From positions 1 through 64,000 of the forward strand of contig JAFQDN010000055.1 of assembly GCA_017415995.1 (NCBI GenBank): DNA of 64,000 nucleotides, written 5' to 3'. Both the position numbers and the translations under genes were made by a program. The stretch comes from Akkermansia sp. (lineage in GTDB: Bacteria > Verrucomicrobiota > Verrucomicrobiia > Verrucomicrobiales > Akkermansiaceae). Of the stretch, positions 33,123 through 51,965 are shown piece by piece (the stretch's first letter is position 1; each line of letters begins with the position of its first letter). Under the pieces are notes generated by a model. It saw only the letters and a program-made list of their open reading frames with translations. It was not told the origin of the DNA and did no database searches.

Positions 33123-33148
33123 ATGCGGGGAGCTCTCGCTCCCCGCAT
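33123..33148 (-). terminator. hairpin after the TMEM43-like gene
   Basis: A perfect 11-bp stem (33123-33133 with 33138-33148) lies just past the stop of the minus-strand gene. No T-run follows on either strand, so it may be a weak or factor-dependent terminator, or an RNA-stabilising hairpin. Confidence 0.45.
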
Positions 33149-33181
33149 GCTAAAGCATTGATAATTAGTTATACGCTTTGT

Positions 33182-34948: not shown

Positions 34949-35036
34949 AATATTGTTGTCTGTGTGTATCTTGGTTGTTATGTTCAGTTTTGCGCCTGAA
35001 CTTCGCCTCACTATCGCTCCTTGTTGCAGAGCCGTA

Positions 35037-36224: not shown

Positions 36225-36284
36225 TTACTAGGTTCCTATAACTCGGGCGGTCTAACACACCAACCACTGGTGTTAGTCTATGGT

Positions 36285-36458: not shown

Positions 36459-36740
36459 TGCAGATGCCCTATACATAGCCTGATTTTTTGTGATTGCTAC
36501 AAAACACGTGTGAGGTGCGCCCCGTTTTCTGACCACCGGCTATGTTGTTTAAGGAATTTTGGAGCCGATGCTTGGAGCTGTGGTTAAGTTACTGCTTTTT
36601 TCGGTGATTGTCAATCCTAATTTTTTGGCGATTTTGTTAGCGGAGGCGTGGGCGTGTCGCGCGCAGCGCGCCCCCGGAGCGTAGCGGAGGGAGCCCCGCC
36701 GTAGCGGAAAAATCGCCAAAAAATTTCGCCGGGGGGGGAT

Positions 36741-37574
36741 TCATGCGACGGACTGATGCTCTTCTCTCCATTTTTCTGGTGTCTTGTTGCCAAGGGATGA
36801 ATGCAATCGCTCGCTATTGTAGTAGCTTATCCATGTCTTGAGCCGTTGCTCTATGGACTTCTGTGTCACGTCGTCATATAAGTTGAATAATTCGTATTTG
36901 TACGTACGCCGGAAACGCTCCATTCTTACATTATCCCTCCAACTACCCTTGCCGTCCATACTGGGTCTGATGCCCAGTTGTCGTACTCGTGATAACTAGG
37001 ATTCAGATGTAAACTGACTACCCTGATCTGTATTGAGGATTTCCGGTTTACGTCCACTCGCTAACGCCATTGTCAGTGCCTCATGGCACAGTTCCACGGT
37101 CATGTTGCGTCCTACGCTATACCCTAAGGCCTCTCGGCTTGCCCAATCTATGACGGCACACAAATAATATGTTCTTCCCTCCACCTTTAGGTAGGTTATA
37201 TCGGTAGCCCATACCATGTCCGGCTTGTCCATTTGCATACCTTTGAGCAAGTATGGTACTTTCTCGTGTTGCGGATGCGGTTTGCTGGTATTACGCTTAC
37301 AATAGATTGCCTTAAGCCCCAGCTCTTTCATCAGCCGCCTTACATATTTCCTGTTTACTTGATATTGTAAGGCGTTACTAACGTGAGTTGTTAGGCGACG
37401 ATAGCCTAAACAAGGGTCTTTCAATAACCACGCCAATATTACTTGTTTGGCTTGCTTATCTCTTACTTTGGCTATTTCTGAGCGTTTCTATGTGTAATAA
37501 TACCGCGATTTGCTCAAATCCGGCAATTGACACTGGCGTCTTACGCTTATGCGAGGCTCCGTTTCATCTATCAT
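36741..37574 (-). pseudogene. IS3-family transposase orfB, interrupted
   Basis: The integrase-type transposase is readable from about 37574 to 36741 in one frame. It shows the DDE core stretch WATDITYLKVEGRTYYLCAVIDWASREALGYS, then LNTDQGSQFTS, and a final GSWRDNVRMERF/YYNSERLHSSLG region with the Glu. Two in-frame TAG codons break it, at 37488-37490 and 36996-36998; the second stands where relatives usually have a tryptophan after the FTS stretch. No frameshift is needed to read through both. The element is therefore probably inactive unless another copy supplies the enzyme. Confidence 0.85.
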
Positions 37575-37642
37575 TTGATAGCGTCCCTCCACGCCGGTAC
37601 ACTCATTGCCTTTTTTTTTAGCCAAGCCAGTTCGTATTCCCT

Positions 37643-37888
37643 TTACCCTACCAGCTGTTCCAGGTCGTTGACTTTCTTTTCCGGTTTCCTGACATTTTTG
37701 TCTGCCTTATTCCTGCGGACAAACAACTGCGCTGCTCCTTGCTGCAACTGTTGTTTCCATTCGCATATCTGACCGGCGGCCACTCCGTACTGTGCTGCCA
37801 GTTCCTGCAGACTCTTTTCGCCTTTCACTGCCTCCAAGGCAACTGTCGCCTTGAACTCTTCTGTGCATTGTTTGCGTTGTTTGCTCAT
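37643..37888 (-). CDS. IS3-family transposase orfA
   Basis: DNA-binding helix-turn-helix subunit of 81 residues. The family start is seen (KQCTEEFKATVALEAVKGEKSLQELAAQYGV), then a leucine-rich region. A run of nine A (37611-37619 on the minus strand) follows, in the place where IS3 elements use frameshifting to make the OrfAB fusion. OrfB is broken, so no active transposase should result. Confidence 0.88.
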   Translation of the reverse strand: MSKQRKQCTEEFKATVALEAVKGEKSLQELAAQYGVAAGQICEWKQQLQQGAAQLFVRRNKADKNVRKPEKKVNDLEQLVG

Positions 37889-38107
37889 TGTTGTGTTTGT
37901 GGTTATGTTACCCCAAACACGGCTCTTTTTCCACCCTAAAATTCGTTAACCAATGTGGCCTTTTCAGGGGTGCACCTCACCATTTACTCAACGTCGACAT
38001 TTTTCTGACAAATATTCCACGCCGGGTACCATGCCTCTACTTTCTTTTTCGGATGGCTTTCATTTTCACAAACATCAGCTCACTCCGCTTTAATTCACGC
38101 CCGCTCC

Positions 38108-38437
38108 TCAATAAGTATCAAAATACCCCTTACCCTTGCAGCGGCTGCACGTTTGGGTTGTTGGAATCATCGAGTTCATGTCTACGGCTGCCTCTACGCC
38201 TGAACCACAGCATTTAGAGCAAGTTGAACGCTGTTTTATTGGCTGAGTATACGTTCTCGGGGGCGGTTCCGGAGCCGTTACCGGAGCCACCCACTGAGTC
38301 TGTGTCACTTGCGGTTGCGGATTCAACGGTCCGGGCGAACTTTGCCAGGAGTTGTACCTTGTAGGGGTTTGGCATGAGCAAAACAACAACGCTCCGGCTG
38401 ACATACCGACAAAGATTGCATAAGTGCGAATTTTCAT
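38108..38437 (-). CDS. small lipoprotein with a zinc-ribbon-like end
   Basis: The start at 38437 gives 109 residues and a signal with the lipobox LLFCSC. A Pro/Gln-rich middle leads to two CxxC pairs with glycines (CSKCCGSG and CSRCKGKG) about 23 residues apart, like the zinc modules of DnaJ. It starts 4 bases after the end of the 485-residue gene and is most likely translated with it. A paralog with the same build lies at 40053-40334. Confidence 0.75.
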   Translation of the reverse strand: MKIRTYAIFVGMSAGALLFCSCQTPTRYNSWQSSPGPLNPQPQVTQTQWVAPVTAPEPPPRTYTQPIKQRSTCSKCCGSGVEAAVDMNSMIPTTQTCSRCKGKGYFDTY

Positions 38438-38441
38438 ACTT

Positions 38442-39899
38442 TTATCTGAATAAGAAGGGTGCTTTAAAGATACCGTCCGGACCGGGAACAAGAGTCCTCA
38501 CTTTTCCACCCTCACCGGTCGGAGAAGCGACGCGCTCATGCCACTCTATTACAGACCAATCGGTGGTACCATTCGGCAATAGGCAATGGTTGCGGTACCA
38601 TCTGAAGTAGTTTCCATAATCAACGGAGCAATGCTCTCTCGCAAAACGCTCCGCACTCATACCTTGATAAAAATAGACAGTATTAACAAATGCATATTCT
38701 GCATTGTTGGCATGCCCCTCTACCAATTGTTTTCTGTATATATAATCAGAGTTGAAAATATGATAATATTTGCAAAAAAGAAAACAATGTGCCATTTCAT
38801 GTGCAATCGTACCGTTTATTGCTATTTCTCTCCTCCAGCGAGAAGTCTCATCTGTTATATCAGAAAAATTCTCTACATGCACATCAATTTGAAGATTAAT
38901 AGAATCAGAAGAAGTGAAAGAGCGCTTTGCTTGCCCCAACCATTGAGGCTCAGAAACAGACAAACGTATCGGTATCTTTGATAAATCTATATTCGGCAGT
39001 CCCGCCAAATGATAAGTTCCCCCATATTTGATCAGCTGACTTTTAATATAATAAGCACGAGCTCGAAGCCCTGCTTCATTTTCTGAATAGGTGGACAAAC
39101 GCAACGCCAAATATGAAGGATAAAACCCGGCTATTACTTTCCCGGTATCATAGCCAATAAAACTTTGCATTTCAGCTCTGATTCTTCGTAAAGATTCGAT
39201 GTATGTTTGCAACTCTGCATGTAATCCTGAATCTGCTAGCTTCCATTGAGAATATAGAACTATAGCCTTATCAAGAAACTCAGCGGAGACTCTCTGATTA
39301 CGTTCTGCATTCCAATTACCATCACCATCCCAATGTATCGCTGCCAGCTCTTGCATTGCTGGTTCATAGTTACGCTGAGCTGCAATTACCAGCCATTCAT
39401 ATGCCCTTTCTGCATCTCGCGCGACACCGAGACCATAGCAATTTATTTCTGCCATAAAATAGGCAGCTGCGGCATCCCCCAATGATGCAGCCTCCGCAAA
39501 TTTTGCCAAGCCACTCGACATTTCTCCTTTCTTATAAAGCAACTGCCCGTATAAGCGTTTACCCCGAGCATCGCCATAATTTGCCAGCTTCCGGTACAAG
39601 GATTCCTTCTTTTCATCGGACTCTTCCAAAAAGGATGCGACGTGATTCTTCACATATGCACCATAATTACGATACACCGTCAATAATTCCTCGGAAATCG
39701 ACAGTCTCAGATCATAACTGTGCGCTTGTCCATAGGCATCGTATAGCTGCTCAAATGCACGCTCCTGCGCGTACAAGCTATCCGCATCATAAATTGCCCT
39801 AGCGCTTTGCACCATTTGTCTCGCCTGCGCATCATCTGCCCAAGTTACAGAGCAGCCCAATAAAAACGTTGCCATTAATAAAAACTTACGTATCAACAT
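38442..39899 (-). CDS. exported Sel1 repeat protein with HEMAH motif
   Basis: A signal peptide (IRKFLLMATFLLGCSVTWA) is followed by Sel1-like repeats at about 100-210 (GDARGKRLYGQLLYKKGEM, GDAAAAYFMAEINCYGLGV). A second region contains AHEMAHCFLFCKYYH near residue 365, an HExxH zinc-protease signature, followed some 25 residues later by EGHANNAEY. The pairing of Sel1 repeats with a possible metallopeptidase is unusual. No known peptidase family is clear to me. It sits between the two zinc-ribbon lipoprotein genes. Confidence 0.75.
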   Translation of the reverse strand: MLIRKFLLMATFLLGCSVTWADDAQARQMVQSARAIYDADSLYAQERAFEQLYDAYGQAHSYDLRLSISEELLTVYRNYGAYVKNHVASFLEESDEKKESLYRKLANYGDARGKRLYGQLLYKKGEMSSGLAKFAEAASLGDAAAAYFMAEINCYGLGVARDAERAYEWLVIAAQRNYEPAMQELAAIHWDGDGNWNAERNQRVSAEFLDKAIVLYSQWKLADSGLHAELQTYIESLRRIRAEMQSFIGYDTGKVIAGFYPSYLALRLSTYSENEAGLRARAYYIKSQLIKYGGTYHLAGLPNIDLSKIPIRLSVSEPQWLGQAKRSFTSSDSINLQIDVHVENFSDITDETSRWRREIAINGTIAHEMAHCFLFCKYYHIFNSDYIYRKQLVEGHANNAEYAFVNTVYFYQGMSAERFAREHCSVDYGNYFRWYRNHCLLPNGTTDWSVIEWHERVASPTGEGGKVRTLVPGPDGIFKAPFLFR

Positions 39900-40052
39900 A
39901 AAATTATCATTCTACGGTTTCGAGGTTTATCTATGATGGTTGAATTCCGAGGTGGTGATGGAGGCCATTGTATCGGCTTCCATTCGTCCTACCTTTCAGA
40001 CGGCTCAGAGCTGCATTTTGTTTGATTTTATTTCCGTTTTTGTTGTTAACGA

Positions 40053-40334
40053 CTAATATGTGTTGAATACTTTCCTTCCCTGACAACGAGCGCACTTCCT
40101 CGTTTTTCTCCTCCCGTTGTTGAGATTTTCAACCGATTCCAACCCACTACCTTGGCACTTGCTACAGGGGGTCGTTTTCAACGGTAGCAAATAATGCCGA
40201 TTCGAACTATCCGTAGATGGTATCCTTCCATTGGGGGCGTTCACGACCGGGGTCGTGAATATAAAATGCTGCTCACATGACATGAGCAACAGTACACCGA
40301 CTGATGCTATGCTGATGTTTTCAACTGTCTTCAT
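40053..40334 (-). CDS. small lipoprotein with a zinc-ribbon-like end
   Basis: The product has 93 residues. The lipobox LLLMSC is near residue 20, and the end carries CSKCQGSG and CARCQGRK, two CxxC pairs as in the protein at 38108-38437. The start at 40334 gives the short signal; an ATG at 40346 adds four residues. The two proteins agree in length, order and final residues (KGYFDTY versus RKVFNTY), so they are paralogs. Confidence 0.72.
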   Translation of the reverse strand: MKTVENISIASVGVLLLMSCEQHFIFTTPVVNAPNGRIPSTDSSNRHYLLPLKTTPCSKCQGSGLESVENLNNGRRKTRKCARCQGRKVFNTY

Positions 40335-40420
40335 ACAAGATACCATTTGAGGTAATTGTCAATTTTCAGATATCACGCTCCAGTTTTGAATTTTTATGAA
40401 GTAAGAGCCTTGAGAAAACC

Positions 40421-41818
40421 TTATTTCTTTTTCATCGCAGCTCTCAAGAGCTCTGCAATTCGGGTGTATCCTTTCTTTTGCGCAATATAAAGGGCTGTAT
40501 TCCCGGAGGAATCGACGGCATAAGGGTTAATTCCCGGTGTGGCAAGAAGCATCTCAACGAATTTGGTTTTGCCTAATAATGCAGCACCATGCAACGCAGT
40601 CCACCCCTTACAATCAGCATGATTAACATCAATCCCGGGTGCAGAGAGCAAAAGACGTAAACATTCTGGGTCATCTACATTCATTACACAATAATGAAGA
40701 GGAGTACTCCCCTTATCATCTGCCTTATTGACAAGAATGCCATGAGCATTCAACAAATGACGAAGGTACGGAATTCGATTGGGTACGTTGGGGGCGCCGG
40801 CAATCACATGAAGCAAGCTCATTCCTTTTTCAAGAACAATATTGGCATCAATCCTTGAATCCGAGAGCAAGAGATAAACACAATCTCTATGATCATTGTC
40901 TACAGCATAAAAAAGCGGAGTATTACCGTCTTGGTCCACCGGATTAACATTAATGCCGGAGGCAGCCAGAAGAAGACGAATGCAATCTTTACGCCCCTCG
41001 CGAGCCGCGAAATGCAAGGCTGTGTGCCCTGCCCTATCTGTAGAGTTAACATTTATGCCCTTGGCATAAAGTAAAAGACGTACAATCTCTGTTTGGCCTG
41101 AAGCAGAAGCCTCCATAAGAGGTGTAATTGATTCTCCATCAAAAACACCCGGCATATTTACATCAATCCCCGGGGCATTGAGTAGTAGACGAACAAGCTC
41201 TATGCTGCCTGAACCAATGGCAGCAATAAGAGGAGTACCTGTTTTTCCATCAAAAACAACCGGCATATTTACATCAATCCCCGGGGCATTGAGTAAAAGA
41301 CGTACATGCTCTGTGCTGCCTGAAAAAACAGCCACTATAAGAGGAGTACCTGTTTTTCCATCAAAAACAACCGGAATATTTACATCAATCCCCGGGGCAT
41401 TGAGTAGTAGACGAACACACTCAGTTTGGCCTGTAGCCAAAGCAATCACAAGAGGTGTATATGTAACACCATCAAAAACACTTGGCCTATTTACATCAAT
41501 TCCCGGAGCATTGAGCAAAAGGCGTACATACTCTGCGCGACGAGAAACTACAGCAGCCATAAGAGGCGTACTTGAATCTTCACCCCTAAAACAGGCTATA
41601 TTAACATCTATCCCCGGAGTGGCAAGAAATTGTTTAACCTTCTTGATATCGTTATCCTCGATTGCTTTAATCAATTCACATGCGAGTTTTTTTGCTCTCG
41701 TATCACCATCAGATTGATTTGATAATTCCGCATCATGAGCAGCAAACGAATGAGCAGAAACAGAAAGCAATGCGCATAAGAGAACAGCTATGAAACTAAT
41801 GCATCTCATGTATATCAT
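40421..41818 (-). CDS. exported ankyrin repeat protein (465 aa)
   Basis: A signal peptide (SFIAVLLCALLSVSAHSFA) is followed by about eleven ankyrin repeats. Several have the form RLLLNAPGIDVNxP and differ by only a few bases across 111-bp units (41160-41490), so the array expanded recently. The final repeat lies near the C-terminus (GNTALYIAQKKGYTRIAELLRAAM). A second ATG at 41809 is a possible start. It is the last ankyrin gene of the run that begins at the second inverted-repeat element; the 102- and 49-residue membrane protein genes come just before it. Confidence 0.85.
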   Translation of the reverse strand: MIYMRCISFIAVLLCALLSVSAHSFAAHDAELSNQSDGDTRAKKLACELIKAIEDNDIKKVKQFLATPGIDVNIACFRGEDSSTPLMAAVVSRRAEYVRLLLNAPGIDVNRPSVFDGVTYTPLVIALATGQTECVRLLLNAPGIDVNIPVVFDGKTGTPLIVAVFSGSTEHVRLLLNAPGIDVNMPVVFDGKTGTPLIAAIGSGSIELVRLLLNAPGIDVNMPGVFDGESITPLMEASASGQTEIVRLLLYAKGINVNSTDRAGHTALHFAAREGRKDCIRLLLAASGINVNPVDQDGNTPLFYAVDNDHRDCVYLLLSDSRIDANIVLEKGMSLLHVIAGAPNVPNRIPYLRHLLNAHGILVNKADDKGSTPLHYCVMNVDDPECLRLLLSAPGIDVNHADCKGWTALHGAALLGKTKFVEMLLATPGINPYAVDSSGNTALYIAQKKGYTRIAELLRAAMKKK

Positions 41819-41868
41819 AGTAAAGGGTTAAAAATCTGAGTTTATGCAGCCAATCATCATCACTTTAC

Positions 41869-42177
41869 TTATCCTCGGAATATCGCAACAATAACCTTAA
41901 TAGGAATTACAACAATGCCGATAACGCATGCAACACTAATAGCCACACCTACCGCAAAGAACCCGGCAATCGGGCCGCCACTGGAAAAGGAATCCCTAAT
42001 AGAATGTCTGAGTTTGGGTCCCTGGACAGGATGAGCAAATAACGACATTGTTGCACACAAACAATACCCAACAGCCGAGAAAGTATAAAGCTGGGGCATC
42101 TGAATGGCAAAGCCGATTCCGGCACATATAAGCGCTAGCACCGCCAACACATCTGTAAAGCTGAGTTTATTTTCCAT
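41869..42177 (-). CDS. small membrane protein (102 aa)
   Basis: Three hydrophobic segments are visible (VLAVLALICAGIGFAI, FSAVGYCLCATMSLFA, and a long VGVAISVACVIGIVVIPIKVIVAI). A short basic loop lies between the second and third. It begins 15 bases after the 49-residue gene stops and ends 50 bases before the 465-residue ankyrin gene's ATG. I do not recognise it. Position suggests a membrane partner or immunity role in the peptide cluster, which is only an inference. Confidence 0.65.
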   Translation of the reverse strand: MENKLSFTDVLAVLALICAGIGFAIQMPQLYTFSAVGYCLCATMSLFAHPVQGPKLRHSIRDSFSSGGPIAGFFAVGVAISVACVIGIVVIPIKVIVAIFRG

Positions 42178-42192
42178 AATTCAACCTATATT

Positions 42193-42342
42193 TTATTTAC
42201 CCATATTACACAAAGCCAGCAAAATTGCACCGGGCACTGCCAGCAAAGCGCCTAATGCAATAAAAGCACCGACTCCGCAAAAATCACCGAGCAGACCAAT
42301 AACAATGCCTGCTCCCAACATATTAGCTCCGATTTTAGTCAT
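42193..42342 (-). CDS. small glycine-rich membrane peptide (49 aa)
   Basis: An open frame of 49 codons with ATG at 42342, too short for ordinary gene calling. The product begins MTKIGANMLGAGIVIG and is nearly all hydrophobic, with a Cys in the first helix and one near the end. It is spaced 15 and 30 bases from its neighbours on the same strand. Whether it is a membrane anchor, an immunity peptide or a bacteriocin-like peptide cannot be told. Confidence 0.55.
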   Translation of the reverse strand: MTKIGANMLGAGIVIGLLGDFCGVGAFIALGALLAVPGAILLALCNMGK

Positions 42343-42372
42343 ATATTTATTAGTTTGGTTTTAACAGAGAAC

Positions 42373-43581
42373 TTAATTTGCGCCCTTGTTTTTCAAGAGT
42401 CGCACACATTCAGCATTTCCGCACCGCGCAGCCCAATATAGCGCGGTTTTGCCATGCTCATCCGTCCGGTTAACAAGCGCACCATGCTTCAGCAAAATAT
42501 CAACGCAATCCGCATATCCGTTCATAGCTGCCACGATAAGCGGAGTTTGTCCTCCCGCATCAGCTTTGTTGACATCCGCACCTGCCCTGAGCAAGAGATT
42601 GAGGCAATCTTTATTGCCATCACCCGCAGCAATGAAAAGAGGCGTTTGCCCGTCTTTATTACACACATCCGCTTCTGCCCCGGCAGATAGCAGGAGCTGC
42701 ACACATTCCGGATGATTGTAAAGCGCTGCGCGGAAGAGAGGTGTATTCCCGTCTTTATCTGCTTGATTAGCATCTCCTCCGGCATTCAGCAAAAGCTTGG
42801 CACTTTCTGTGTACCCATATGCTACAGCCTGAGAGAGTGGCGACTCGCCATCTTCATTTGGCTTGTCAACCTCTATGCCCGGCAGTGAGAGCAGCAGTTG
42901 CACACAGTCAGTGTGCCCCGCAGTGGCGGCTGCACAAAGCGCGCTTTCACCTTCTGCCGTGGCAGCATTAAGCTTTATACCGGGCGTTGAGGCCAGCAGC
43001 ATGGCACATTCTGTTCGTCCCAGCCAACACGCCCAATAGAGCGGAAAACATCCGTTCTTATCCGCACCGTTAACATCTGCACCTGATTGAATAAGCAAGT
43101 TTACGCCTTGAATATCATTCAATATTGTAACCAAGGACAACGGATTCCACTCACTCGTATTGATTCCGGGTCTGGCAAGAAGGAGCTTTGCGCATTCTAT
43201 GTGCTCATTCCATGCGGCAAGGTACAGCGGAGTCTCCCCTCCCATACCGGCACGGTTTACATCTATCCCGGGGACAGCAAGCAAACATTTAACGACATCC
43301 GGGTTTCCCTCAGCTGCTGCTATTTGCAGGAATGACTCGCCATCCCAATCTTGCTTGTTCACATCCATCCCTGGTAGCCCAACCAGTCGCCGTACCTGCT
43401 CAACATCATGATTTACGATTGCTTGCGATAATTGAAAATAAGTCTCCTCACACGCTACAGCTTCAGCAGCGCACCCTCGCCTAATATCCGTACCGCAAAA
43501 TGAAACGCCGATGCATACAGCTGTAACACTGACGGTCATCATGTAGGCTATGCTAAGGCTGATTACATCCCGACGTTTCAT
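42373..43581 (-). CDS. ankyrin repeat protein (402 aa)
   Basis: One hydrophobic segment near the start (ISLSIAYMMTVSVTAVCIGVSF) may be a signal peptide or anchor. About ten ankyrin repeats fill residues 45-400, many of the form LLAxPGIDVN, with full TPLxxAA boxes. It starts 20 bases after the rSAM-A gene stops, so it is probably part of the peptide-maturation operon and could be a binding partner or receptor of the product. Confidence 0.85.
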   Translation of the reverse strand: MKRRDVISLSIAYMMTVSVTAVCIGVSFCGTDIRRGCAAEAVACEETYFQLSQAIVNHDVEQVRRLVGLPGMDVNKQDWDGESFLQIAAAEGNPDVVKCLLAVPGIDVNRAGMGGETPLYLAAWNEHIECAKLLLARPGINTSEWNPLSLVTILNDIQGVNLLIQSGADVNGADKNGCFPLYWACWLGRTECAMLLASTPGIKLNAATAEGESALCAAATAGHTDCVQLLLSLPGIEVDKPNEDGESPLSQAVAYGYTESAKLLLNAGGDANQADKDGNTPLFRAALYNHPECVQLLLSAGAEADVCNKDGQTPLFIAAGDGNKDCLNLLLRAGADVNKADAGGQTPLIVAAMNGYADCVDILLKHGALVNRTDEHGKTALYWAARCGNAECVRLLKNKGAN

Positions 43582-43601
43582 CTTGAGTTACTCGTTTCTG
43601 C

Positions 43602-44834
43602 TTATTTACTTCTCAGCCGGCTGCTTTCAAGAGATTGTTTTACCTTGCGCAACAAACGCAGGTACGACTTGAGAAGGGAAGCGGATTCCGGGGTGAGGCC
43701 ACGTTGAATGAGGCGCTCGGACTGAAACTCCAAGGCAACGAGTGCAAGCGTGAGATTGACACGGCACATGGAGTGGTCTCGTACAGCGGGAGAGTTTCTG
43801 TGAATATAGTTAGCGGCAGGACATGTATAACAGGAATGCTTGATGGGGCAATCAACACAGAAGGGGTCATTGTGATTGGCGGCATCATCATATTGGTACT
43901 CATGGTACGGCAAAGCACGTTCCCCGGCACTGACAGGAGAAAACATACTGCATGGATATTTGGCACCGTCCACATCATAACAAACTTTCAGACACCCTGC
44001 CCCACACTTCTGAGAACAGGGAGACGGAGAATCCTCCGCACCGGTAAAAAATGGGGCCAGCAAAGCAGGCAAGGCGGTAGGCTCATGCAAATAAAAAGCC
44101 TTAAGCTCACGCAGCTCGCGTTCCAGAACGCAGCGAGCATACTCCGACCACTGCACACCATGAGCCAACTGAGCCCGCAAAGTGTACCCTGCAGCAAAGG
44201 ATGCTTTAATATCCTGAGCAAGCGTTTCCACGGACTCCGGAGAAACCGTCATGCGGAAAGACATATCCGGCCATTCGCGGTGGCAGAACTCAAGCGCGCT
44301 TTCCGCAGAACAACGTCGGTTTGTCATCTGACTCAGAGAAGAACCATCGTAACTGACGGTAAGCACAATCATGTCCTTATTGTTGCGGAACCACTCGCGC
44401 ACACTATCCGTAAGCAACGTACCGTTCGTAATGACCATGAACATCAGCGGTACAGAGTGAACGGACTCGCGCGCCCAAGCCACCACTTGCTGAATAAGAG
44501 GGAAATTGAGCAATGGTTCCCCTCCGAACAGCTCTACCAACAGCCAAGAAAAACGTTGTTTCTCAGACTCAACGCAACGCAGTTCTTCTTCCAAGCAGCG
44601 TTTAGCCGTGGGAAAGTCCATGGAGCGGTGCGATTTGAAGCGCTCATAGCAGTAGGAGCAGTTCAGATTACAACGCTGAGTGATCATGAGTGTACAAGTC
44701 CTGTTTTTACGCTTATCAACAGGACTCAGACGCTCAATGCGTGGGGTTAATGCCAGCTCTTTCATCAATTGTGGGAAAACGCGCGATGCGCCATGCATAC
44801 ACAGCGCACCGAGCGGGGATTCTTGTTTACTCAA
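43602..44834 (-). CDS. radical SAM/SPASM enzyme A, likely RiPP maturase
   Basis: A 410-residue enzyme. The radical SAM cluster motif CNLNCSYCYERF (C55, C59, C62 from the TTG start) is intact, then VELFGGEPLLN. The C-terminal SPASM region has many cysteines (CSQKCGAGCLKVC, PCSMFS, CVDCPIKHSCYTC, then a final C). Enzymes of this type crosslink cysteines in small peptides. The start is a TTG at 44834 that overlaps the last codons of the peptide A gene by 8 bases; a decayed copy at 45235 keeps the same TTG context, supporting this choice. An ATG at 44798 is the alternative. Confidence 0.87.
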   Translation of the reverse strand: MSKQESPLGALCMHGASRVFPQLMKELALTPRIERLSPVDKRKNRTCTLMITQRCNLNCSYCYERFKSHRSMDFPTAKRCLEEELRCVESEKQRFSWLLVELFGGEPLLNFPLIQQVVAWARESVHSVPLMFMVITNGTLLTDSVREWFRNNKDMIVLTVSYDGSSLSQMTNRRCSAESALEFCHREWPDMSFRMTVSPESVETLAQDIKASFAAGYTLRAQLAHGVQWSEYARCVLERELRELKAFYLHEPTALPALLAPFFTGAEDSPSPCSQKCGAGCLKVCYDVDGAKYPCSMFSPVSAGERALPYHEYQYDDAANHNDPFCVDCPIKHSCYTCPAANYIHRNSPAVRDHSMCRVNLTLALVALEFQSERLIQRGLTPESASLLKSYLRLLRKVKQSLESSRLRSK

Positions 44835-44967
44835 TCGAGCACTTGTAGCTATCGCAGCAGCCGATGCAGCCGGACTTCATTTCTGCAATGCAGCCCTCGG
44901 TCTCGTTGACCGTGCCGAAATCGGCCTCGAAAGCTGCCAAGGCAGCTTGAATTTGGGATTCACTCAT
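44827..44967 (-). CDS. Cys-rich peptide A, candidate RiPP precursor
   Basis: An open frame of 46 codons. The N-terminal half is a helical, acidic leader-like stretch (SESQIQAALAAFEADFG); the end has five cysteines at residues 26, 34, 37, 38 and 43 (core SGCIGCCDSYKCSIE). It differs from peptide B in only four residues. Its stop overlaps the TTG start of rSAM-A, so they are translationally coupled. No Shine-Dalgarno is seen upstream. This is the usual order precursor then maturase, and the five Cys could be crosslinked by the neighbouring SPASM enzyme. Confidence 0.75.
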   Translation of the reverse strand: MSESQIQAALAAFEADFGTVNETEGCIAEMKSGCIGCCDSYKCSIE

Positions 44968-44997
44968 ATTCGTTTTAGTATGTTTGTTGTTTTGTTA

Positions 44998-45024
44998 TTT
45001 TTACCGAAACCGTATCGGTAAAAA
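44998..45024 (-). other. hairpin between the decayed rSAM and peptide A
   Basis: A perfect 10-bp stem (tttttaccga, 44998-45007, with 45015-45024) lies 31 bases before the peptide A start, with a loop of 7. No T-run follows, so it is not a classic terminator. A weaker version sits at the same distance before peptide B (45399-45424). Confidence 0.55.
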
Positions 45025-45028
45025 AGCT

Positions 45029-45235
45029 TACACAAAATCAGAAAATCCTGATTAATCAGTTTTCTGATACGTAATAAGAACTTGAGCAAGTCAACAACTC
45101 CGCAGTAAGCAGGTATAGCGACAGGGCTCAGGAGCTGCATCCGCAGGGGTATTGACGGCTCTTTCATCTGAGACAAAACACGCGCGGTGCGCAATGTACG
45201 CACTGCACACCGCTCGGGGATTCATGTTTACTCAA
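45029..45235 (-). pseudogene. remnant of a third radical SAM gene
   Basis: The 5' end matches the start of rSAM-A: TTG at 45235, then a SKxESPxG reading like SKQESPLG, and a stop after 23 codons. The 3' end matches the last 30 codons of rSAM-B (LLKFLLRIRKLI at DNA level) and the following hairpin. The middle has been deleted. It shows that the unit peptide-plus-maturase was once duplicated in tandem. Confidence 0.8.
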
Positions 45236-45368
45236 TCGAGCACTTGTAGCTATCGCAGCAGCCGATGCAGCCGGACTTCATTTCAGCAACGCAGCCCTCG
45301 GCCTCATTGACTGTACCGAAATCGGCCTCGAAAGCTGCCAAGACAGCTTGGATTTTGGATTCACTCAT
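45228..45368 (-). CDS. Cys-rich peptide B, candidate RiPP precursor
   Basis: The 46-residue product matches peptide A except for Lys5, Val9, Ala23 and Val27, keeping all five cysteines (26, 34, 37, 38, 43). It lies between rSAM-B (61 bases upstream) and the rSAM remnant whose TTG overlaps its stop, in the same arrangement as peptide A and rSAM-A. Few changes, all outside the Cys-rich end, suggest selection on the core. It may be matured by rSAM-A, rSAM-B or both. Confidence 0.75.
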   Translation of the reverse strand: MSESKIQAVLAAFEADFGTVNEAEGCVAEMKSGCIGCCDSYKCSIE

Positions 45369-45429
45369 ATTCGTTTTGGTGTGTTGTTTGTTTTGTTATT
45401 TTCACCGAAACCGTATCGGCAAAAAAAGC

Positions 45430-46605
45430 TTACGAGATCTCAGAAAGCCGCAGATCAATCAGTTTTCTGATACGTAGTAAGAACTTAAGCAAGCCGGCAG
45501 ACTCCGGAGTAAGCGGTTCTGAGGCCAAGAGCTCGGACTGGTACTCAGCCGTCAGCAAAGCAAGCGCCAAATACATGTGACACATAGCGTGATCACGCAA
45601 TGCGGTGTGGCCACGCATCACATAGTTCATGCCATAGCAAGTTGGACACCAATGGCGGATGGGGCACCCCACGCAATGCGGGTCTTCCCTGTTTTGCGGG
45701 AGTGTCAAATTCACCTCTTCCAAAGGAAGCGCCTTATCCCCAACCGTGAGGGGAGTGAACATTTGGCAGCCGTATTTTTTCCCGTCGATATCGTAACAAG
45801 TACAACGAGTGGCGCATCCGCAAGCGATGCTACCACACATATCTGCATCTTCGCCACCCTTGAAAAAGCGGTTTATCAATGTCGTCGGCAAGCTTTTATC
45901 GGCCATAAAAGCTTGTTTAAGCTTACGTCCCTCACGCAGCAACACTGCTGCACATTCCTTCGGCCAATGAATGCCGCCTGCAAGTTCTGCGCGTATGTGA
46001 AAGCCGTTTTTCAGCGCAACCAAGATACTATCCGTCAGAGACTCCAAGGACTCCGGGGGAATCGTCATGCGGAAGGGATGACTAGGCCAAGTAGCCTTGC
46101 TGAAATCTACAGCGGAGTCATTCGCCTTGCCTCGATTGCGCAGTTGAGCCTCAGCAGAGCCATCATAACTCACGCCGTAGAACACCAAATCACTGTTGGC
46201 AGCTAACCAGCCTTTAATTTCATCTGTCAGCAGAGTTCCGTTTGAAGATATGGTAAACTGAACAGGAATATCCCGTACATTCTCCCGCACCCACTCCACA
46301 AGATAGCGAATGACGTCAAAATTCAGCAACGGTTCCCCGCCGAATAAATCGACCAACATCCACTTATACTCAGAGCTGTTGCGTACATTCTGCAGTTGTT
46401 CTCGGAAAGCAGACAAAGCCGTCTCGCGACTCATTTTGCGAGCAGACTTAAACTTCTCATAGCAATAGCTGCAATTCAAATTGCAACTGTGCGTCAGAAT
46501 AAGCATGCAAAGCTTTGCGCTGCGAGGATCTTTCCCCATAGCTTTAGCTACTGCGGAAGCTGCCTCCAACGGAGCGTGCATTACTTCTGTAGTTGTTTCA
46601 TCCAT
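45430..46605 (-). CDS. radical SAM/SPASM enzyme B, likely RiPP maturase
   Basis: A paralog of rSAM-A, with 391 residues. The cluster motif is CNLNCSYCYEKF (C41, C45, C48), then VDLFGGEPLLNF. The SPASM end has CGSIACGCATRCTC, GCQMF, CVGCPIRHWCPTC and a final CHMY. The start ATG at 46605 gives a short N-terminal extension. The small 47-residue peptide gene is 44 bases upstream. A hairpin separates its stop from peptide B. It probably modifies one or both Cys-rich peptides, though no chemistry can be assigned from sequence. Confidence 0.87.
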   Translation of the reverse strand: MDETTTEVMHAPLEAASAVAKAMGKDPRSAKLCMLILTHSCNLNCSYCYEKFKSARKMSRETALSAFREQLQNVRNSSEYKWMLVDLFGGEPLLNFDVIRYLVEWVRENVRDIPVQFTISSNGTLLTDEIKGWLAANSDLVFYGVSYDGSAEAQLRNRGKANDSAVDFSKATWPSHPFRMTIPPESLESLTDSILVALKNGFHIRAELAGGIHWPKECAAVLLREGRKLKQAFMADKSLPTTLINRFFKGGEDADMCGSIACGCATRCTCYDIDGKKYGCQMFTPLTVGDKALPLEEVNLTLPQNREDPHCVGCPIRHWCPTCYGMNYVMRGHTALRDHAMCHMYLALALLTAEYQSELLASEPLTPESAGLLKFLLRIRKLIDLRLSEIS

Positions 46606-46649
46606 AATGAATATAATTCTTGTCTATAACAGATTAATTAGTCTCAGGG

Positions 46650-46793
46650 TTAATCTTTCGTAACCCACCACCACACACGAAGAATCATAGGCAAACACAA
46701 ACCACAACCTAAAACCATCATTTCCTGACATTGAAACAAATTTCCAAGCGCAGCTACGAGGACACCAACAATTAATGCAATAACGTAATACAT
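46650..46793 (-). CDS. small membrane peptide (47 aa)
   Basis: ATG at 46793; the product begins MYYVIALIVGVLVAALG and has two hydrophobic stretches with a Cys-containing middle, then WWW near the end. It resembles the 52-residue peptide at 50309-50467 in its length and its CLP/FLP stretch, so the two are paralogs. The gene lies between the membrane-ankyrin gene (27 bases upstream) and rSAM-B (44 bases downstream). The role is unknown; a membrane partner or immunity function is possible. Confidence 0.6.
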   Translation of the reverse strand: MYYVIALIVGVLVAALGNLFQCQEMMVLGCGLCLPMILRVWWWVTKD

Positions 46794-46820
46794 ATTCTAA
46801 AGTCTATCTTAAACGGGCTA

Positions 46821-47606
46821 TTAATAGCGATACCTCGAACTATAGCTGTTGTTTTGAGAATTAAGCTTATTCTCGATTTCACAATAACAGCTATACTTTC
46901 CACCATCTTTGGCCATATCAAGAGCCGTCTTTCCTTGCTTGTTTTTAATGCTGAGGTCTATATTGGGGGTATTAAGCAAAGCTTTAACACAATCCGTATA
47001 CCCTAAGAAAGCAGCCAAGTGCAAAGGAGTATTGCCGAGCTTATCCTGCTGATTCACATTTTCTCCCTTAGCAATTAAGCGTTTAACCTCAATGACATTA
47101 TTTGCTAACACAGCCTTATGCAAAGCGGTTTGACCATTACCCTCCTCTTTTACTTTGACAATAATATATTTTTCAATGTAGTGGTAGCTGACATAGCTAA
47201 CACCACCTATCATCACAATACCGAAGAAGGAACCGAGCACATATCGGAGGAAATTATTGCGGATAAAAGAAAATGAAGCAAGCGACAGTTGCAGCATCAG
47301 CATGAAAATGTTTATCGTCAGGATGATGGGGATCAATATAAAGCTCAATAGCGTGACGCCACACGCCCAAATAGCCATACCGACACAGCCCAAGTCGCGG
47401 ATACTCAACATCATGACAAAGTAGGAATCTCGTCCCATTGCGCCACAAACAACACCGGCGTACACACACAGCACAAAAAAGGCAATCAAGATACCATCGC
47501 CATCGGTCTCGCACAGTCCTTGCAAAATGTATGATATGCAAGCAATTCCAATAGCTAACACTAACAAACAACGAAAAATAATACCGATACGTCCTAAAAT
47601 TGTCAT
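46821..47606 (-). CDS. membrane protein with C-terminal ankyrin repeats (261 aa)
   Basis: I chose the ATG at 47606, since an ATG at 47624 lies inside the inverted-repeat arm. Four hydrophobic segments fill residues 5-150 (RCLLVLAIGIACISYIL, IAFFVLCVYAGVVCGAM, CGVTLLSFILIPIILTINIFML, YVLGSFFGIVMIGGVSYVSY). Residues 165-250 hold two to three ankyrin repeats (NGQTALHKAVLANNVIEVKRL, GNTPLHLAAFLGYTDCVKAL). It is the first gene after the second inverted-repeat element, whose promoter-like sequence points at it. A shortened copy of its start lies at 50519-50614. Confidence 0.82.
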   Translation of the reverse strand: MTILGRIGIIFRCLLVLAIGIACISYILQGLCETDGDGILIAFFVLCVYAGVVCGAMGRDSYFVMMLSIRDLGCVGMAIWACGVTLLSFILIPIILTINIFMLMLQLSLASFSFIRNNFLRYVLGSFFGIVMIGGVSYVSYHYIEKYIIVKVKEEGNGQTALHKAVLANNVIEVKRLIAKGENVNQQDKLGNTPLHLAAFLGYTDCVKALLNTPNIDLSIKNKQGKTALDMAKDGGKYSCYCEIENKLNSQNNSYSSRYRY

Positions 47607-47618
47607 GCACGAATCATA

Positions 47619-47801
47619 CTGCATTCCGAATGCTGATGTCTTAATGATTATTCGTTATAAGGACTTTGGCTACATATATGCATGAAAAGTGTGTGCGCGG
47701 AAATAAGACCTTGAATCTGCAAAAGATTCCTTATATGCTGATTTACACATTTTTTTGTATGATGAATTATTTTTGAGTTGACATCAGCATTCGGAATGCA
47801 G
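47619..47801. repeat. inverted-repeat element, copy 2
   Basis: Two 22-bp arms match perfectly (47619-47640 and 47780-47801). Each arm holds the palindrome gcattccgaatgc on one side (or its partner gcattcggaatgc). The interior is nearly identical to copy 1. The likeness extends to cacgtg at 47847. Confidence 0.92.
47654..47682 (-). promoter_or_regulatory. promoter-like sequence in copy 2, pointing to the membrane-ankyrin gene
   Basis: TGCATA and TATAAC lie 17 bases apart, reading leftwards. It is the same pair as in copy 1. The start falls about 40 bases before the ATG at 47606. Confidence 0.45.
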
Positions 47802-47839
47802 GTGCCCTATACATAGCCTGATTTTTTGTGATTGCTACA

Positions 47840-47872
47840 AAACACGTGCGCCCCCTTTCGGGGGCGCTGTTT
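47840..47872 (-). terminator. terminator after the 727-residue ankyrin gene
   Basis: A perfect 8-bp GC stem (gcgccccc 47848-47855 with gggggcgc 47860-47867), loop tttc. On the minus strand it is followed by ACGTGTTTTG. It separates the 727-residue gene from the second element. Confidence 0.78.
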
Positions 47873-47921
47873 TCCGGCATCGGCTGCCGAATTAAAGGCG
47901 CTGAGTGCAGCGCGTATCCGT

Positions 47922-50105
47922 TCACGCTTGCGCGCCGGCGGCTTTCAGGAGATGGACACATTCCTCATGACCACTCTCTGTAGCCACGGCAAGTGGTGTC
48001 TCGCCCTTATCTGCTGCTATATTGACATAGCAACCCGCCTTTATCAATAGCTTAACGCACTCCGCGGACCCGCAAAATGATGCATAATGAAGCGGTGTCC
48101 ACCCTGCTTTATCTGCTTGATGAACATCCACTCCTGCTTCAAGCAACAGCTCAGCACATTTTGCGTGACCGTACGTAGCTGCAATGGTGAGCGCCGTCGC
48201 GCCATTCTCATCTGTCTTGCCGGCATCAATACCTGCTTCAATGAGGGCTTTTACCACTACGGTATCGTCATGGGAAACAGCTCGATGCAGCAAGGTCCAA
48301 GCATTTTCCTTTCCGCTATCAGCATCTTCTTCGGCATCAATGTACGCGTTTACAACCTCAGTGTTACCACACGCAGCAGCCTTGTGCAGAGGCGTTTCGC
48401 CATTTTTATCTGTCCCGTTGACATCTGCTCCGGCCTCGATGAGCGCCCTTACGACTCCTGCGCAACTATACTCAGCAGTCTTATGCAGGGGTGACTGTCC
48501 GTCTTTATCTGTCTTGTTGACATCCGCTCCGGCATCGATGAGGAGGTTTACGATTGCAGTGTTACCATTCTCAGCAGCCTTAAACAACGGAGTCCTGCCA
48601 TATTTATCAGCTTTATTAACATCCGCTTTATTAACATCCGCTTCATTCACGAGCTCGGAGACAGCACCATAGTTATCATTCTCAGCAGCCTTAAACAACG
48701 GAGTCCTACCATATTTGTCTGCTTTGTTGACATCCGCTCCGGCTTCTATGAGAACTTCTACTGTTCCGGTGTGACCTTTCTCAGCAGCATTATACAGCGG
48801 AGTCTTGCCTTCCATATCTTTACTATCGACCTCCGCTCCGGCTTCTATGAGAACTTCTACTGTTCCGGTGTGACCTTTCTCAGCAGCATTATACAGCGGA
48901 GTCTTGCCTTCCATATCTTTACTATCGACCTCCGCTCCGGCCTCGATGAGCGCTTCGACGATTTCGGTTTTGCCGAACTTAGCAGCCTTATGCAGAGGAG
49001 TCTCGTCAAAAAGGACGTCTATACTATCTACCTCCGCTCCGGCATCGATGAGCGCTTTGACGATTTCAGCGTTGCCGAGCCAAGCAGCCTTATGCAGCGG
49101 AGTCCTACCATATTTGTCTGCTTTGTTGACATCCGCTCCGGCCTTTATGAGAACTTCTACTGTTTCGGTGCGACACCTCCATGAAGCGACATGAAGCGGA
49201 GTCTCGCCAACCTCATCTTTACTATTGACATCCGCCCCTGCCTCGATGAGCGCTTCGACGGTTTCAGCGTTGTCTTCCCAAGCAGCCATATGCAGCGGTG
49301 TCTTGCCATCCTTATCTGTGCATTCGACATCAGCTCCGGCTTTTATGAGCACTTTGACGGTTTCGGTGTGCCCCTTCCCTGCAGCATCATGTAGCGGAGT
49401 TTTGCCATCCTTATCTGTACTATCGACATCCGCTCCGGCTTTTATGAGCACTTTGACGGTTTCGGTGAGACCTTTCAATGCAGCCCAGTGTAGCGGAGTT
49501 TTGCCATCCTTATCTGTACTATCGACATCCGCTCCGGCTTTTATGAGCACTTTGACGGTTTCGGTGAGACCTTTCAATGCAGCCCAGTGTAGCGGAGTAT
49601 AGCCATCCTCATCTTTACTATCGACATCCGCTCCGGCATCTATGAGTGCTTTTACGATTTCGGTGTGACCTTCCTCAGCAGCGCTATACAGCGGACAGCA
49701 TAAACTACATATGCCTGAGCCGTTGACATCCGCTCCGGCTTTTATGAGCACTTTTACGGTTTCGGCATTCTCAGAAGCAGCCGCATTCAGTGGCGTATCG
49801 CCAACCTCATTTACTATACTATCGACATCCGCTCCGGCATCTATAAGCGCTTTTACGGTTTCGGCATTCCCGGAAGCAGCAGCCGCATACAGTGGCGTAC
49901 AGCCATCCTCATCTTTACTATTGACATCCGCCCCAGCCTCGATAAGAGCTTTTACGGTTTCGGGGTGATCGCGCCAAGCAGCCATATGCAAGGGAATCCG
50001 TCCATCTTTATCTGTACCGTTGACATCCTCGCCGGCAGCGATGAGTTTTTTTACGATTTCTGTTCGGCCTTGTTCAACCGCCATTACCAGTGTCATTTTA
50101 CTCAT
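47922..50105 (-). CDS. ankyrin repeat protein (727 aa)
   Basis: The product is made up of about 21 ankyrin repeats of 33 residues from near the start (MTLVMAVEQGRTEIVKKLI) to the end, without a signal peptide or membrane segment. Many repeats are ETVKVLIKAGADVDSTDKDG-type. Two pairs of adjacent units are almost or fully identical at the DNA level, 99 bases long (49391-49589 and 48741-48938). Such arrays change length by recombination. A protein-binding role in the cytoplasm is likely. It follows the small peptide gene at 50309. Confidence 0.9.
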   Translation of the reverse strand: MSKMTLVMAVEQGRTEIVKKLIAAGEDVNGTDKDGRIPLHMAAWRDHPETVKALIEAGADVNSKDEDGCTPLYAAAASGNAETVKALIDAGADVDSIVNEVGDTPLNAAASENAETVKVLIKAGADVNGSGICSLCCPLYSAAEEGHTEIVKALIDAGADVDSKDEDGYTPLHWAALKGLTETVKVLIKAGADVDSTDKDGKTPLHWAALKGLTETVKVLIKAGADVDSTDKDGKTPLHDAAGKGHTETVKVLIKAGADVECTDKDGKTPLHMAAWEDNAETVEALIEAGADVNSKDEVGETPLHVASWRCRTETVEVLIKAGADVNKADKYGRTPLHKAAWLGNAEIVKALIDAGAEVDSIDVLFDETPLHKAAKFGKTEIVEALIEAGAEVDSKDMEGKTPLYNAAEKGHTGTVEVLIEAGAEVDSKDMEGKTPLYNAAEKGHTGTVEVLIEAGADVNKADKYGRTPLFKAAENDNYGAVSELVNEADVNKADVNKADKYGRTPLFKAAENGNTAIVNLLIDAGADVNKTDKDGQSPLHKTAEYSCAGVVRALIEAGADVNGTDKNGETPLHKAAACGNTEVVNAYIDAEEDADSGKENAWTLLHRAVSHDDTVVVKALIEAGIDAGKTDENGATALTIAATYGHAKCAELLLEAGVDVHQADKAGWTPLHYASFCGSAECVKLLIKAGCYVNIAADKGETPLAVATESGHEECVHLLKAAGAQA
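48741..48938. repeat. two tandem 99-bp units in the 727-residue ankyrin gene
   Basis: The units starting at 48741 and 48840 read the same over almost their full length. They code for two ankyrin repeats. Confidence 0.85.
49391..49589. repeat. two tandem 99-bp units in the 727-residue ankyrin gene
   Basis: The units starting at 49391 and 49490 agree closely, and the start of a third (from 49589) continues the pattern. They code for KVLIKAGADVDSTDKDG-type repeats. Confidence 0.85.
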
Positions 50106-50308
50106 AATTTTGTTGATTTGCGTATTAAATAATTCTTAACCCATATCCACCGAGAGCGCGAGTGCACGGACAGCGGCAATAGACAGCCCAGAGGCGGGGG
50201 CTCTGTGCTCCGACGTGTTGTATTGAGTGAAGAGATGTGCGAACATATGGAGAAAATAAGGTTTAGGGAGAATTTAGAGAGAACGGGGTGAAAAGAGAGA
50301 AGAGCGGT

Positions 50309-50467
50309 TTAACGAAAATCCCTCAGGAATTTGGCAATACGAAAGACAATAGGGAGAAAACACATGACGCCCAGCCAAAAGATTTCCTCAGCAGCCAAAT
50401 AGTGACCGGCGGCCATCAAAGCCCCCCCGGATATTAACAACAGTACAATTACCAGTAATTGACGCAT
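50309..50467 (-). CDS. small membrane peptide (52 aa)
   Basis: ATG at 50467. The product begins MRQLLVIVLLLISGGALMAAGH, has two hydrophobic stretches around LGVMCFLPIVF and a basic end (KFLRDFR). It resembles the 47-residue peptide at 46650, with the same spacing of the second stretch. Both lie downstream of a membrane-ankyrin start and an inverted-repeat element. A gap of 200 bases separates it from the 727-residue ankyrin gene; I see no gene in that gap. Confidence 0.6.
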   Translation of the reverse strand: MRQLLVIVLLLISGGALMAAGHYLAAEEIFWLGVMCFLPIVFRIAKFLRDFR

Positions 50468-50518
50468 AAGTAATTCTATTCTGAATCAGTTTAGTACAGA
50501 TTAGCAACACTGCAAGCA

Positions 50519-50614
50519 TTAACTTTCGTGGTAAATAGCAGGAAAGGCATACAAACAGATTGCCAACACCGGAAAACAACGAACGATAACACACGTGTGA
50601 GCTAAGATTGTCAT
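50519..50614 (-). pseudogene. stub of a membrane-ankyrin gene
   Basis: The 31 codons (MTILAHTCVIVRCFPVLAI...) match the start of the gene at 46821 (MTILGRIGIIFRCLLVLAI) and then stop at a TAA. The rest of the gene is gone. It sits in the same place relative to the third element as the full gene does relative to the second. Confidence 0.65.
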
Positions 50615-50626
50615 GTTGGAATCATA

Positions 50627-50811
50627 CTGCATTACTAATGCTGATGTCGTAATGACTGCTCATTATAAGGATTTTAAGCACATATGTAAATGAAAAGTGC
50701 GTGCGCAGTGAATAACACGTTGCATCAGACAAACTTTCCTTATATGCTGTTTTTGCACATTTTTTTGTGTTACGGATTACTTTTGAGTTGACATCAGCAT
50801 TAGTAAAGCAG
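50627..50811. repeat. inverted-repeat element, copy 3, next to the recombinase gene
   Basis: Arms at 50627-50648 and 50790-50811 match in 21 of 22 bases as an inverted repeat. The central palindrome reads gcattactaatgc on the left and its partner gcattagtaa on the right, so the middle differs from copies 1 and 2 but agrees between the two arms. The interior is related to copies 1 and 2 but more diverged. The right arm ends 11 bases before the recombinase ATG. Confidence 0.9.
50662..50690 (-). promoter_or_regulatory. strong promoter-like sequence in copy 3, pointing left
   Basis: Reading leftwards, TTTACA and TATAAT lie exactly 17 bases apart, near-perfect sigma-70 boxes. Transcription would start inside or just before the left arm and run towards the stub, the 52-residue peptide and the 727-residue gene. 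It points away from the recombinase gene in this orientation. Confidence 0.7.
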
Positions 50812-50822
50812 GAGATAGCAAT

Positions 50823-51965
50823 ATGGAAGCGAGCATCGGAATGAAACTGACGAAGGAAGACGCGGAGCGTTTGGTACAGGAAGCGTTGGAGAATCTGGGA
50901 GAGGGAGCAATGAGGAAGAGCCGGCTGGAGCAAATACAGGAGGTAAGGCGAGTATTGCAGAGAGGAGTGAAAAGCATCCGCGAAGAGGAGGCTACGGAGA
51001 CGCTGGGTAATGCGGCGTGGGCAAGCGTGAAAGCGCGGAGGGAATTAAGAGAGAGCTCACGGCGGGATTTGCGTCATTTTGTGAGGCGGATACTGCGAGT
51101 AGAAGGAGTAGCGGAGCTACCATTGCGAGGGATAAGCAGCAAGGAATGCCGGCGCATCCTGAAAGCGGCATTTGCCAACAGCCGAAGCAGTTACATAAAA
51201 GGCCGGGCAGTCTTGAGTAGCATATTCAGCTACGGGCTCATGCAAGAGTGGTGCAGCGAAAACCCGGTAAAACGCATAGAAGTACCGAAGACAGAGGAGA
51301 AAACCATAGAACCGCTGAGTACGGATGAAGTGGAGCGCTTGCTGAAAACAGCACAAAAGCCACAACACCGCTGCATGGCATTTTCGCTGAGGCTTATGCT
51401 GTATTGCGGCATACGTCCGACGGAGGTAAAGCGATTGAAAGAGAGTGATATATACAAAGAAGAAGGCATCGTCATCATCCGGCCGAACAGCAGCAAAACC
51501 GGGGGTGGGCGCACCGTAACCCTGCGCGGGATGCAGGGATTGAAAGCGCATGAATTACAAATACCGCGCAATTGGAACAGGCGGTGGCGCGCCCTGCGCC
51601 GAGACGCGGGATTTACGCATTGGACGGCCGATGTATGCCGACATACCTTTGCGAGTTACCACGCCGCGAGGTTCCGCAACTTGCCGGAATTGCAGCTGGA
51701 GATGGGGCACCGCGACAGCAGCTTGCTACGCACCCGTTACATGGTGCCCGTCAGCAAAACAGAGGCAGAAAAGTTTTGGAAAATGCGCCCGATAGCGCCT
51801 GAACGCAGGGGGCGAAAACACCGCATTTTACACAACAGCAGGGAGAATGACGGTGATTATTCTTCACCGGGCTTTTTAGAGGAGCCCATGGGGGTCCAAG
51901 AGTCATCCTCATCATCAGAGGCAGCGCCACCGGCGGGGGGCTTTTTGTCGCCCATGGGGTTGTAA
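50823..51965 (+). CDS. tyrosine recombinase/site-specific integrase
   Basis: A 380-residue recombinase. The catalytic residues are R198 (CGIRPTEVKRL), K225, R273-H274 (VCRHTFAS), H296 (LEMGHRD) and Y306 (RTRYM). The first histidine of the HxxR box is an Asp (D270). An N-terminal SAM-like core-binding part covers about 1-155. The start ATG at 50823 has a good RBS (aggag at 50810-50814) that overlaps the right arm of copy 3. The last 35 codons, rich in Ser and Pro, are antisense to the 3' end of the thioredoxin-like gene, so the native C-terminus may be around residue 345. It likely acts on the inverted-repeat arms. Confidence 0.9.
   Translation: MEASIGMKLTKEDAERLVQEALENLGEGAMRKSRLEQIQEVRRVLQRGVKSIREEEATETLGNAAWASVKARRELRESSRRDLRHFVRRILRVEGVAELPLRGISSKECRRILKAAFANSRSSYIKGRAVLSSIFSYGLMQEWCSENPVKRIEVPKTEEKTIEPLSTDEVERLLKTAQKPQHRCMAFSLRLMLYCGIRPTEVKRLKESDIYKEEGIVIIRPNSSKTGGGRTVTLRGMQGLKAHELQIPRNWNRRWRALRRDAGFTHWTADVCRHTFASYHAARFRNLPELQLEMGHRDSSLLRTRYMVPVSKTEAEKFWKMRPIAPERRGRKHRILHNSRENDGDYSSPGFLEEPMGVQESSSSSEAAPPAGGFLSPMGL

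Follow-up and report, generated by a model that had tools for sequence, protein, structure and literature searches.

The window (the whole stretch of DNA that was analysed, 64,000 nt) contains a compact gene cassette on the minus strand, in which two genes for radical SAM/SPASM enzymes enclose two short ORFs. The gene order is rSAM1 (46605-45430), pepB (45368-45228), pepA (44967-44827) and rSAM2 (44834-43602). The genes and the features around them are listed below.

rSAM1, 45430..46605, minus strand: radical SAM/SPASM peptide maturase, 391 aa; Pfam PF04055 above cut-off
pepB, 45228..45368, minus strand: 46-aa precursor peptide MSESKIQAVLAAFEADFGTVNEAEGCVAEMKSGCIGCCDSYKCSIE; top match of the relatives' leader profile among 409 window ORFs
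pepA, 44827..44967, minus strand: 46-aa precursor peptide MSESQIQAALAAFEADFGTVNETEGCIAEMKSGCIGCCDSYKCSIE; second match of the relatives' leader profile among 409 window ORFs
rSAM2, 43602..44834, minus strand: radical SAM/SPASM peptide maturase, 410 aa; sister of rSAM1, 43% identical
Duplication unit 1, 45116..45514, minus strand: rSAM1 3' tail, intergenic hairpin, pepB and decayed copy of the rSAM2 5' end; blastn self-alignment, 84% identical to unit 2
Duplication unit 2, 44714..45110, minus strand: decayed copy of the rSAM1 3' tail, intergenic hairpin, pepA and intact rSAM2 5' end
Stem-loop of 10 bp with T-run, 45399..45425, minus strand: between rSAM1 and pepB; duplicate at 44998-45024
Tyrosine recombinase, 50823..51965, plus strand: PF00589; right edge of the inserted island
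Lineage-specific insertion of about 27.6 kb bearing the cassette, 24242..51856, strand not applicable: boundaries given to the nearest gene; flank orthologs adjacent in four congeners

The two 46-residue Cys-rich ORFs that the earlier note had described were found again at the same positions; 42 of their 46 residues are identical and each contains five Cys. The claim that each peptide gene is followed by an rSAM gene overlapping its stop is correct for pepA, which is followed by the intact rSAM2, but not for pepB, behind which only a decayed remnant was found. The rSAM2 start is a TTG within the last pepA codons (TCG ATT GAG TAA), giving an 8-nt overlap with the pepA stop; this start is putative, and in-frame ATG codons are also located at 44798 and 44765. 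No clear Shine-Dalgarno sequence was found upstream of the small ORFs, and a promoter scan gave scores no better than those of shuffled sequences. The stem-loop is a possible attenuator or processing site; the folding z values of its two copies (-0.67 and -2.04) are weak by themselves, and the copies are non-independent evidence.

Self-alignment using blastn revealed a 400-bp tandem repeat (45514-45116 versus 45110-44714; 337 of 402 positions identical, 84%), whose unit contains the rSAM1 tail, the intergenic hairpin, the peptide gene and the rSAM2 head. On the 3' side of pepB, a stretch of about 120 nt copied from the rSAM2 5' end, now decayed, runs into a likewise decayed copy of the rSAM1 3' end; the junction is the same as that behind pepA, but the frame of the rSAM2 head stops after 23 codons. 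Since the unit comprises the rSAM1 tail, a peptide and the rSAM2 head, the ancestral order was rSAM1-peptide-rSAM2, and the congener G003 has an order of the same ancestral type (rSAM-peptide-rSAM-ABC-ClpP). The peptide gene was doubled by this 400-bp tandem duplication. A comparison of pepA and pepB showed five synonymous and four nonsynonymous changes (dN 0.037, dS 0.211, values that come from few sites and nine changes in all), so that synonymous change exceeds nonsynonymous change per site. The last 19 residues of the two peptides are identical, while the flanking remnant has decayed.

Each peptide consists of an acidic leader (about residues 1-25), which is probably helical, and a five-Cys core (about residues 26-46) with the spacing C-x7-C-x2-CC-x4-C (gaps 7, 2, 0, 4), i.e., five Cys within 18 residues and one CxxxC. 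A leader profile was made from the first 34 residues of ten relatives' peptides, the window sequences being left out, and it ranked pepB (15.5 bits) and pepA (13.9 bits) first and second of 409 window ORFs. The best score was 6.1 bits in 2000 shuffles of pepA and 7.3 bits in the other window ORFs of 40-150 aa. In addition, an FEA--G-V segment was recognisable by eye in the leader of one relative (G019). The peptides contain no CXXX repeats, matched no NCBIfam family model and do not qualify as CXXX target peptides. The exact CxxCCxxxxC spacing recurs inside a CXXX peptide of a relative (G600p1, CRFCCFENHC), which suggests that the core in the window is a CXXX-type core in reduced form and not an unrelated peptide.

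The peptide was present in one of the 260 genomes of its family, namely the source genome. A further peptide match, in G065 (E 0.004), was dropped as it lies within a 221-aa frame. A CXXX pattern scan for other Cys-repeat ORFs in the source genome gave 84 matches, mostly low-complexity or long frames. Two Cys-dense matches (G000:C40:7663 and G000:C98:22493) were rejected, being outside any start-to-stop ORF and having no rSAM gene nearby, and one match within the window corresponds to rSAM2's own SPASM loop.

Both enzymes matched Radical_SAM above the Pfam cut-off. The CX3CX2C motif and seven SPASM Cys are invariant in a 12-row family alignment that includes rSAM2 (rSAM1 numbering: C41, C45, C48; C262, C280, C311, C314, C320, C323, C342). 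Around the first SPASM Cys both window enzymes have extra Cys (ACGCATRCTCYD, KCGAGCLKVCYD), in a loop at about residues 257-270 of rSAM1 and in the equivalent loop of rSAM2; most relatives have none there. The best NCBIfam matches of both enzymes were the PapB maturase, in first place, and the nif11-type, CXXX-repeat and SCIFF maturases, all far below the curated cut-offs. Among solved structures, CteB (5wgg) was closest in the profile comparison (E 2.7e-32) and also in the comparison with the AlphaFold model of rSAM1 (Z 23.2 over 309 residues). This model is of moderate confidence (pLDDT 71.9); it was built from three sequences only, and its confidence is low near parts of the loops that bind the clusters. 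CteB, PapB and other SPASM maturases make Cys thioethers by means of a 5'-deoxyadenosyl radical and auxiliary clusters.

Phylogenetic analysis placed rSAM1 and rSAM2 as sisters (support 100/100), and this pair nests in a clade of 12 rows (100/99) in which all other loci have a peptide of the Cys-repeat type beside the enzyme. In G003 and G600, the second enzymes belong to a separate, long-branched group; therefore the two-enzyme layout seems to have more than one origin, or one enzyme was replaced, a reading made unsure by the long branches. Between the two rSAM genes of G600 (L114:8163-11495, minus strand), three different CXXX precursor peptides are encoded; ClpP-like and ABC genes come next.

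A short peptide that has a leader and several Cys adjoins the enzyme in 12 of the 13 related loci that could be tested; in G776 no peptide was found within 900 bp, and G711 ends at a contig edge. This supports the proposal of the earlier note that the locus is a RiPP system, which was to be given up if the peptides were absent beside close enzyme relatives. The peptides of the relatives are mostly CXXX arrays, and some match TIGR04114 or TIGR04117. Enzymes of the same clade are sporadic, with strong matches in 4 of 260 family genomes, isolated occurrences in further families of this phylum, and one case in an Alphaproteobacteria MAG from horse faeces. Viral contigs yielded distant rSAM proteins only; no Cys-repeat peptide was found in the four best examined, and none encodes the window peptide. 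One distant enzyme relative (29% identity) was found on plasmids, in Phocaeicola. This gene of a Phocaeicola massiliensis plasmid (L123:1830-3017, plus strand) has a possible Cys peptide 1.7 kb downstream (4694-4843, plus strand).

A short ORF with leader and core stands beside a peptide-modifying enzyme, and this arrangement is kept in relatives. Thus, the nesting of the enzymes, the adjacent peptides of the relatives and the homology of the leaders point to a RiPP precursor/maturase system within a CXXX-repeat-like rSAM clade. These data make it very improbable that the small ORFs are not genes and result only from the repetition of an intergenic region that separates two rSAM genes with another function. 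Such a reading would agree with the lack of an annotated family match and of a clear Shine-Dalgarno sequence; it is contradicted by the ranks of pepB and pepA in the leader profile test, by the homologous peptides that adjoin the enzymes of relatives, and by the conservation of 42 of 46 residues with mostly synonymous change per site.

Five related cassettes contain a ClpP-like protein, and four of these five contain an ABC exporter as well. The ClpP-like (S14) cassette loci are L045:6796-9160 (plus strand), L046:15611-17990 (plus), L047:5283-7503 (minus), L114:5788-8144 (minus) and L006:4449-4967 (plus). An invariant Ser (DSAA or DSSA) and an invariant His are present in these proteins, and the ClpP-like protein and the exporter are a possible leader protease/exporter pair. 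Since ClpP does not appear in a review of RiPP leader proteases from 2023, leader cleavage by a ClpP-like peptidase would be a new role, and one that could be tested. Neither an ABC exporter nor a ClpP-like protease was found next to the window cassette, as had already been noticed, and the rest of the genome (98% complete) yielded no dedicated one either. The best genome-wide ABC match, at 27% identity, was a generic one, and Clp gave a single weak match (35% over 65 residues), presumably the housekeeping ClpP; both candidates were rejected.

The missing exporter and protease could mean a decaying system, and they count against the RiPP reading together with the lack of a CXXX array and of any family-model match. 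It is improbable, in our view, that the cassette is a decaying remnant whose island has lost exporter and protease and whose peptide has lost its CXXX array, with two rSAM genes persisting without a useful product. Besides the two absent partners, the broken gene copies adjoining pepB and the occurrence of the peptide in just one of 260 family genomes would fit such decay. However, both rSAM frames are intact with every motif Cys kept, the 43% identity between the enzymes indicates that these frames stayed open through a long divergence, and the core is the same in pepA and pepB though the flanking remnant has decayed.

The absence of an exporter could also be functional and not a loss, if the modified peptide were an intracellular cofactor or metal-binding peptide, like the PQQ and mycofactocin precursors, and were not secreted. 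This we regard as rather unlikely. It would be consistent with the lack of both an exporter and a leader protease, with five Cys in 18 residues, and with the next gene beginning 20 nt after rSAM2, so that the cassette may be co-transcribed with its neighbours. However, no dedicated dehydrogenase or client protein adjoins the cassette, and related cassettes have an ABC exporter, which suggests that the product was originally exported.

In four congeners, the genes orthologous to those at 18644-24241 and 51857-55584 are adjacent to each other; thus, the window has about 27.6 kb extra between them (24242-51856). This island has a lower G+C content than the right flank, contains genes for secreted proteins, ankyrin genes, an IS fragment and the cassette, and may be the product of several insertions. 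The tyrosine recombinase at its edge is 53% identical to the integrase beside the CXXX cassette of G003, and no att or terminal repeats of at least 12 bp were found at the island ends. The cassette arrived on, or moved with, this recombinase-bearing island. The position in an ankyrin operon, which the earlier note had considered unusual, turned out to be uninformative: ankyrin genes occur throughout the source genome (170 Ank_2 matches in dozens of ORFs), so the ankyrin neighbours of the cassette carry little information.

Several other small genes of the island are on the minus strand. Two paralogous small proteins (38108-38491 and 40053-40346) have C-terminal DnaJ-type CxxCxGxG pairs, the second also having a lipoprotein-like N-terminus; they are flanked by ankyrin genes and other secreted protein genes. 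A truncated IS3-type transposase fragment (36996-37436) was identified by eye from the sequence. Small membrane proteins are encoded at 41869-42177, 46650-46793 and 50309-50467, adjoining ankyrin genes and rSAM1, and the first two had no Pfam match.

All these characteristics allow us to assume that pepA, pepB, rSAM1 and rSAM2 very probably form a RiPP biosynthesis cassette, derived from a system of the CXXX-repeat type and with a predicted thioether-bridged product. That ancestral system would have had an ABC exporter and a ClpP-like protease of its own. Translation and modification of pepA and pepB, as well as the fate and function of their product, are what we infer in the following scheme. 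The enzymes would recognise the leader of pepA and pepB and cleave SAM, and the resulting 5'-deoxyadenosyl radical would remove a hydrogen atom from a residue close to a core Cys. The Cys sulfur would then be joined at that residue, giving a ranthi- or sacti-type thioether-bridged peptide; the chemistry and the type and place of the cross-link are predictions. Candidate acceptor pairs, proposed from the range of PapB, are C26-E29, C38-D39 (or C34/C37-D39) and C43-E46. As the exporter and protease partners are missing here, the product would stay in the cell, or general machinery would trim and export it. It is less likely that the locus represents a distinct rSAM RiPP subclass, in which two sister maturases act jointly on a duplicated, non-repeat five-Cys core (C-x7-C-x2-CC-x4-C) and the cross-linked product is intracellular, without a dedicated protease or exporter; we give this proposal only a small chance.

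A literature search found no description of the window cassette. This cassette provides a compact example, with two peptides and two enzymes, from a family of cross-linked peptides that has been little characterised; its core is so short that the cross-links could be mapped directly. The cassette is also an intermediate state (the same enzymes, a core without CXXX repeats, partners lost), in which it can be asked which core features the maturases need. Two new leads stand out most clearly: the combination of a non-repeat core and two sister maturases, and the ClpP-like protease of the relatives.

The nearest known systems include the CXXX-repeat rSAM systems (maturase TIGR04115; peptides TIGR04114, TIGR04117 and TIGR04118), which share the size and architecture of the enzyme, a small leader-plus-Cys peptide adjoining it and a homologous leader. 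The window enzymes belong to the CXXX-repeat rSAM clade as drawn here (100/99 nesting, leader profile test), but they scored only 81.9 and 62.6 bits against the TIGR04115 cut-off of 350; a relative with true CXXX peptides also stayed below it (106.4 bits). Unlike these systems, the window has peptides with a single CxxxC and no repeat-model match, sister-paralog enzymes, and neither exporter nor protease.

The PapB ranthipeptide maturase (freyrasin type; NF047865) was the best NCBIfam match for both enzymes and was covered almost completely, but the scores were 107.2 and 104.1 bits, with the cut-off at 340. PapB joins Cys to Asp or Glu in CX3D/E motifs and also in CXnD with n = 0-6 (PMC9413430). 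Similar motifs occur in pepA and pepB (CIAE/CVAE, CCD, CSIE), whose acceptors are candidates only and which lack the run of six CX3D motifs. Core Asp and Glu are nearly absent in several CXXX relatives, so acceptors of the PapB kind may not be shared by the whole clade. SCIFF/CteB (TIGR03974) provides the closest solved structure, 5wgg, by profile and by model, but the enzymes scored 80.9 and 63.8 bits against 425, no SCIFF peptide model matched, and the N-terminal region of CteB is missing from the window enzymes (the alignment begins at CteB residue 91). SCIFF membership was rejected on these scores and on the five Cys in place of six, a difference that had been pointed out before.

For thuricin CD (PMC12093266) and ruminococcin C (PMC8188230), two rSAM enzymes and Cys-rich precursors are described, with two precursors and two enzymes for thuricin CD; the likeness to the window is one of layout only, and the enzymes are distant in sequence (54 and 50 bits with the RumMC model against 720). 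The view that the locus belongs to no known class holds insofar as the window proteins lie below the TIGR04114, TIGR04115 and TIGR04117 cut-offs, but the enzymes fall inside a clade paired with CXXX-repeat peptides, a kind already in NCBIfam. Placed in no named family by cut-off, the cassette is an unusual and stripped-down offshoot of a known modified-peptide family and not a wholly new kind.
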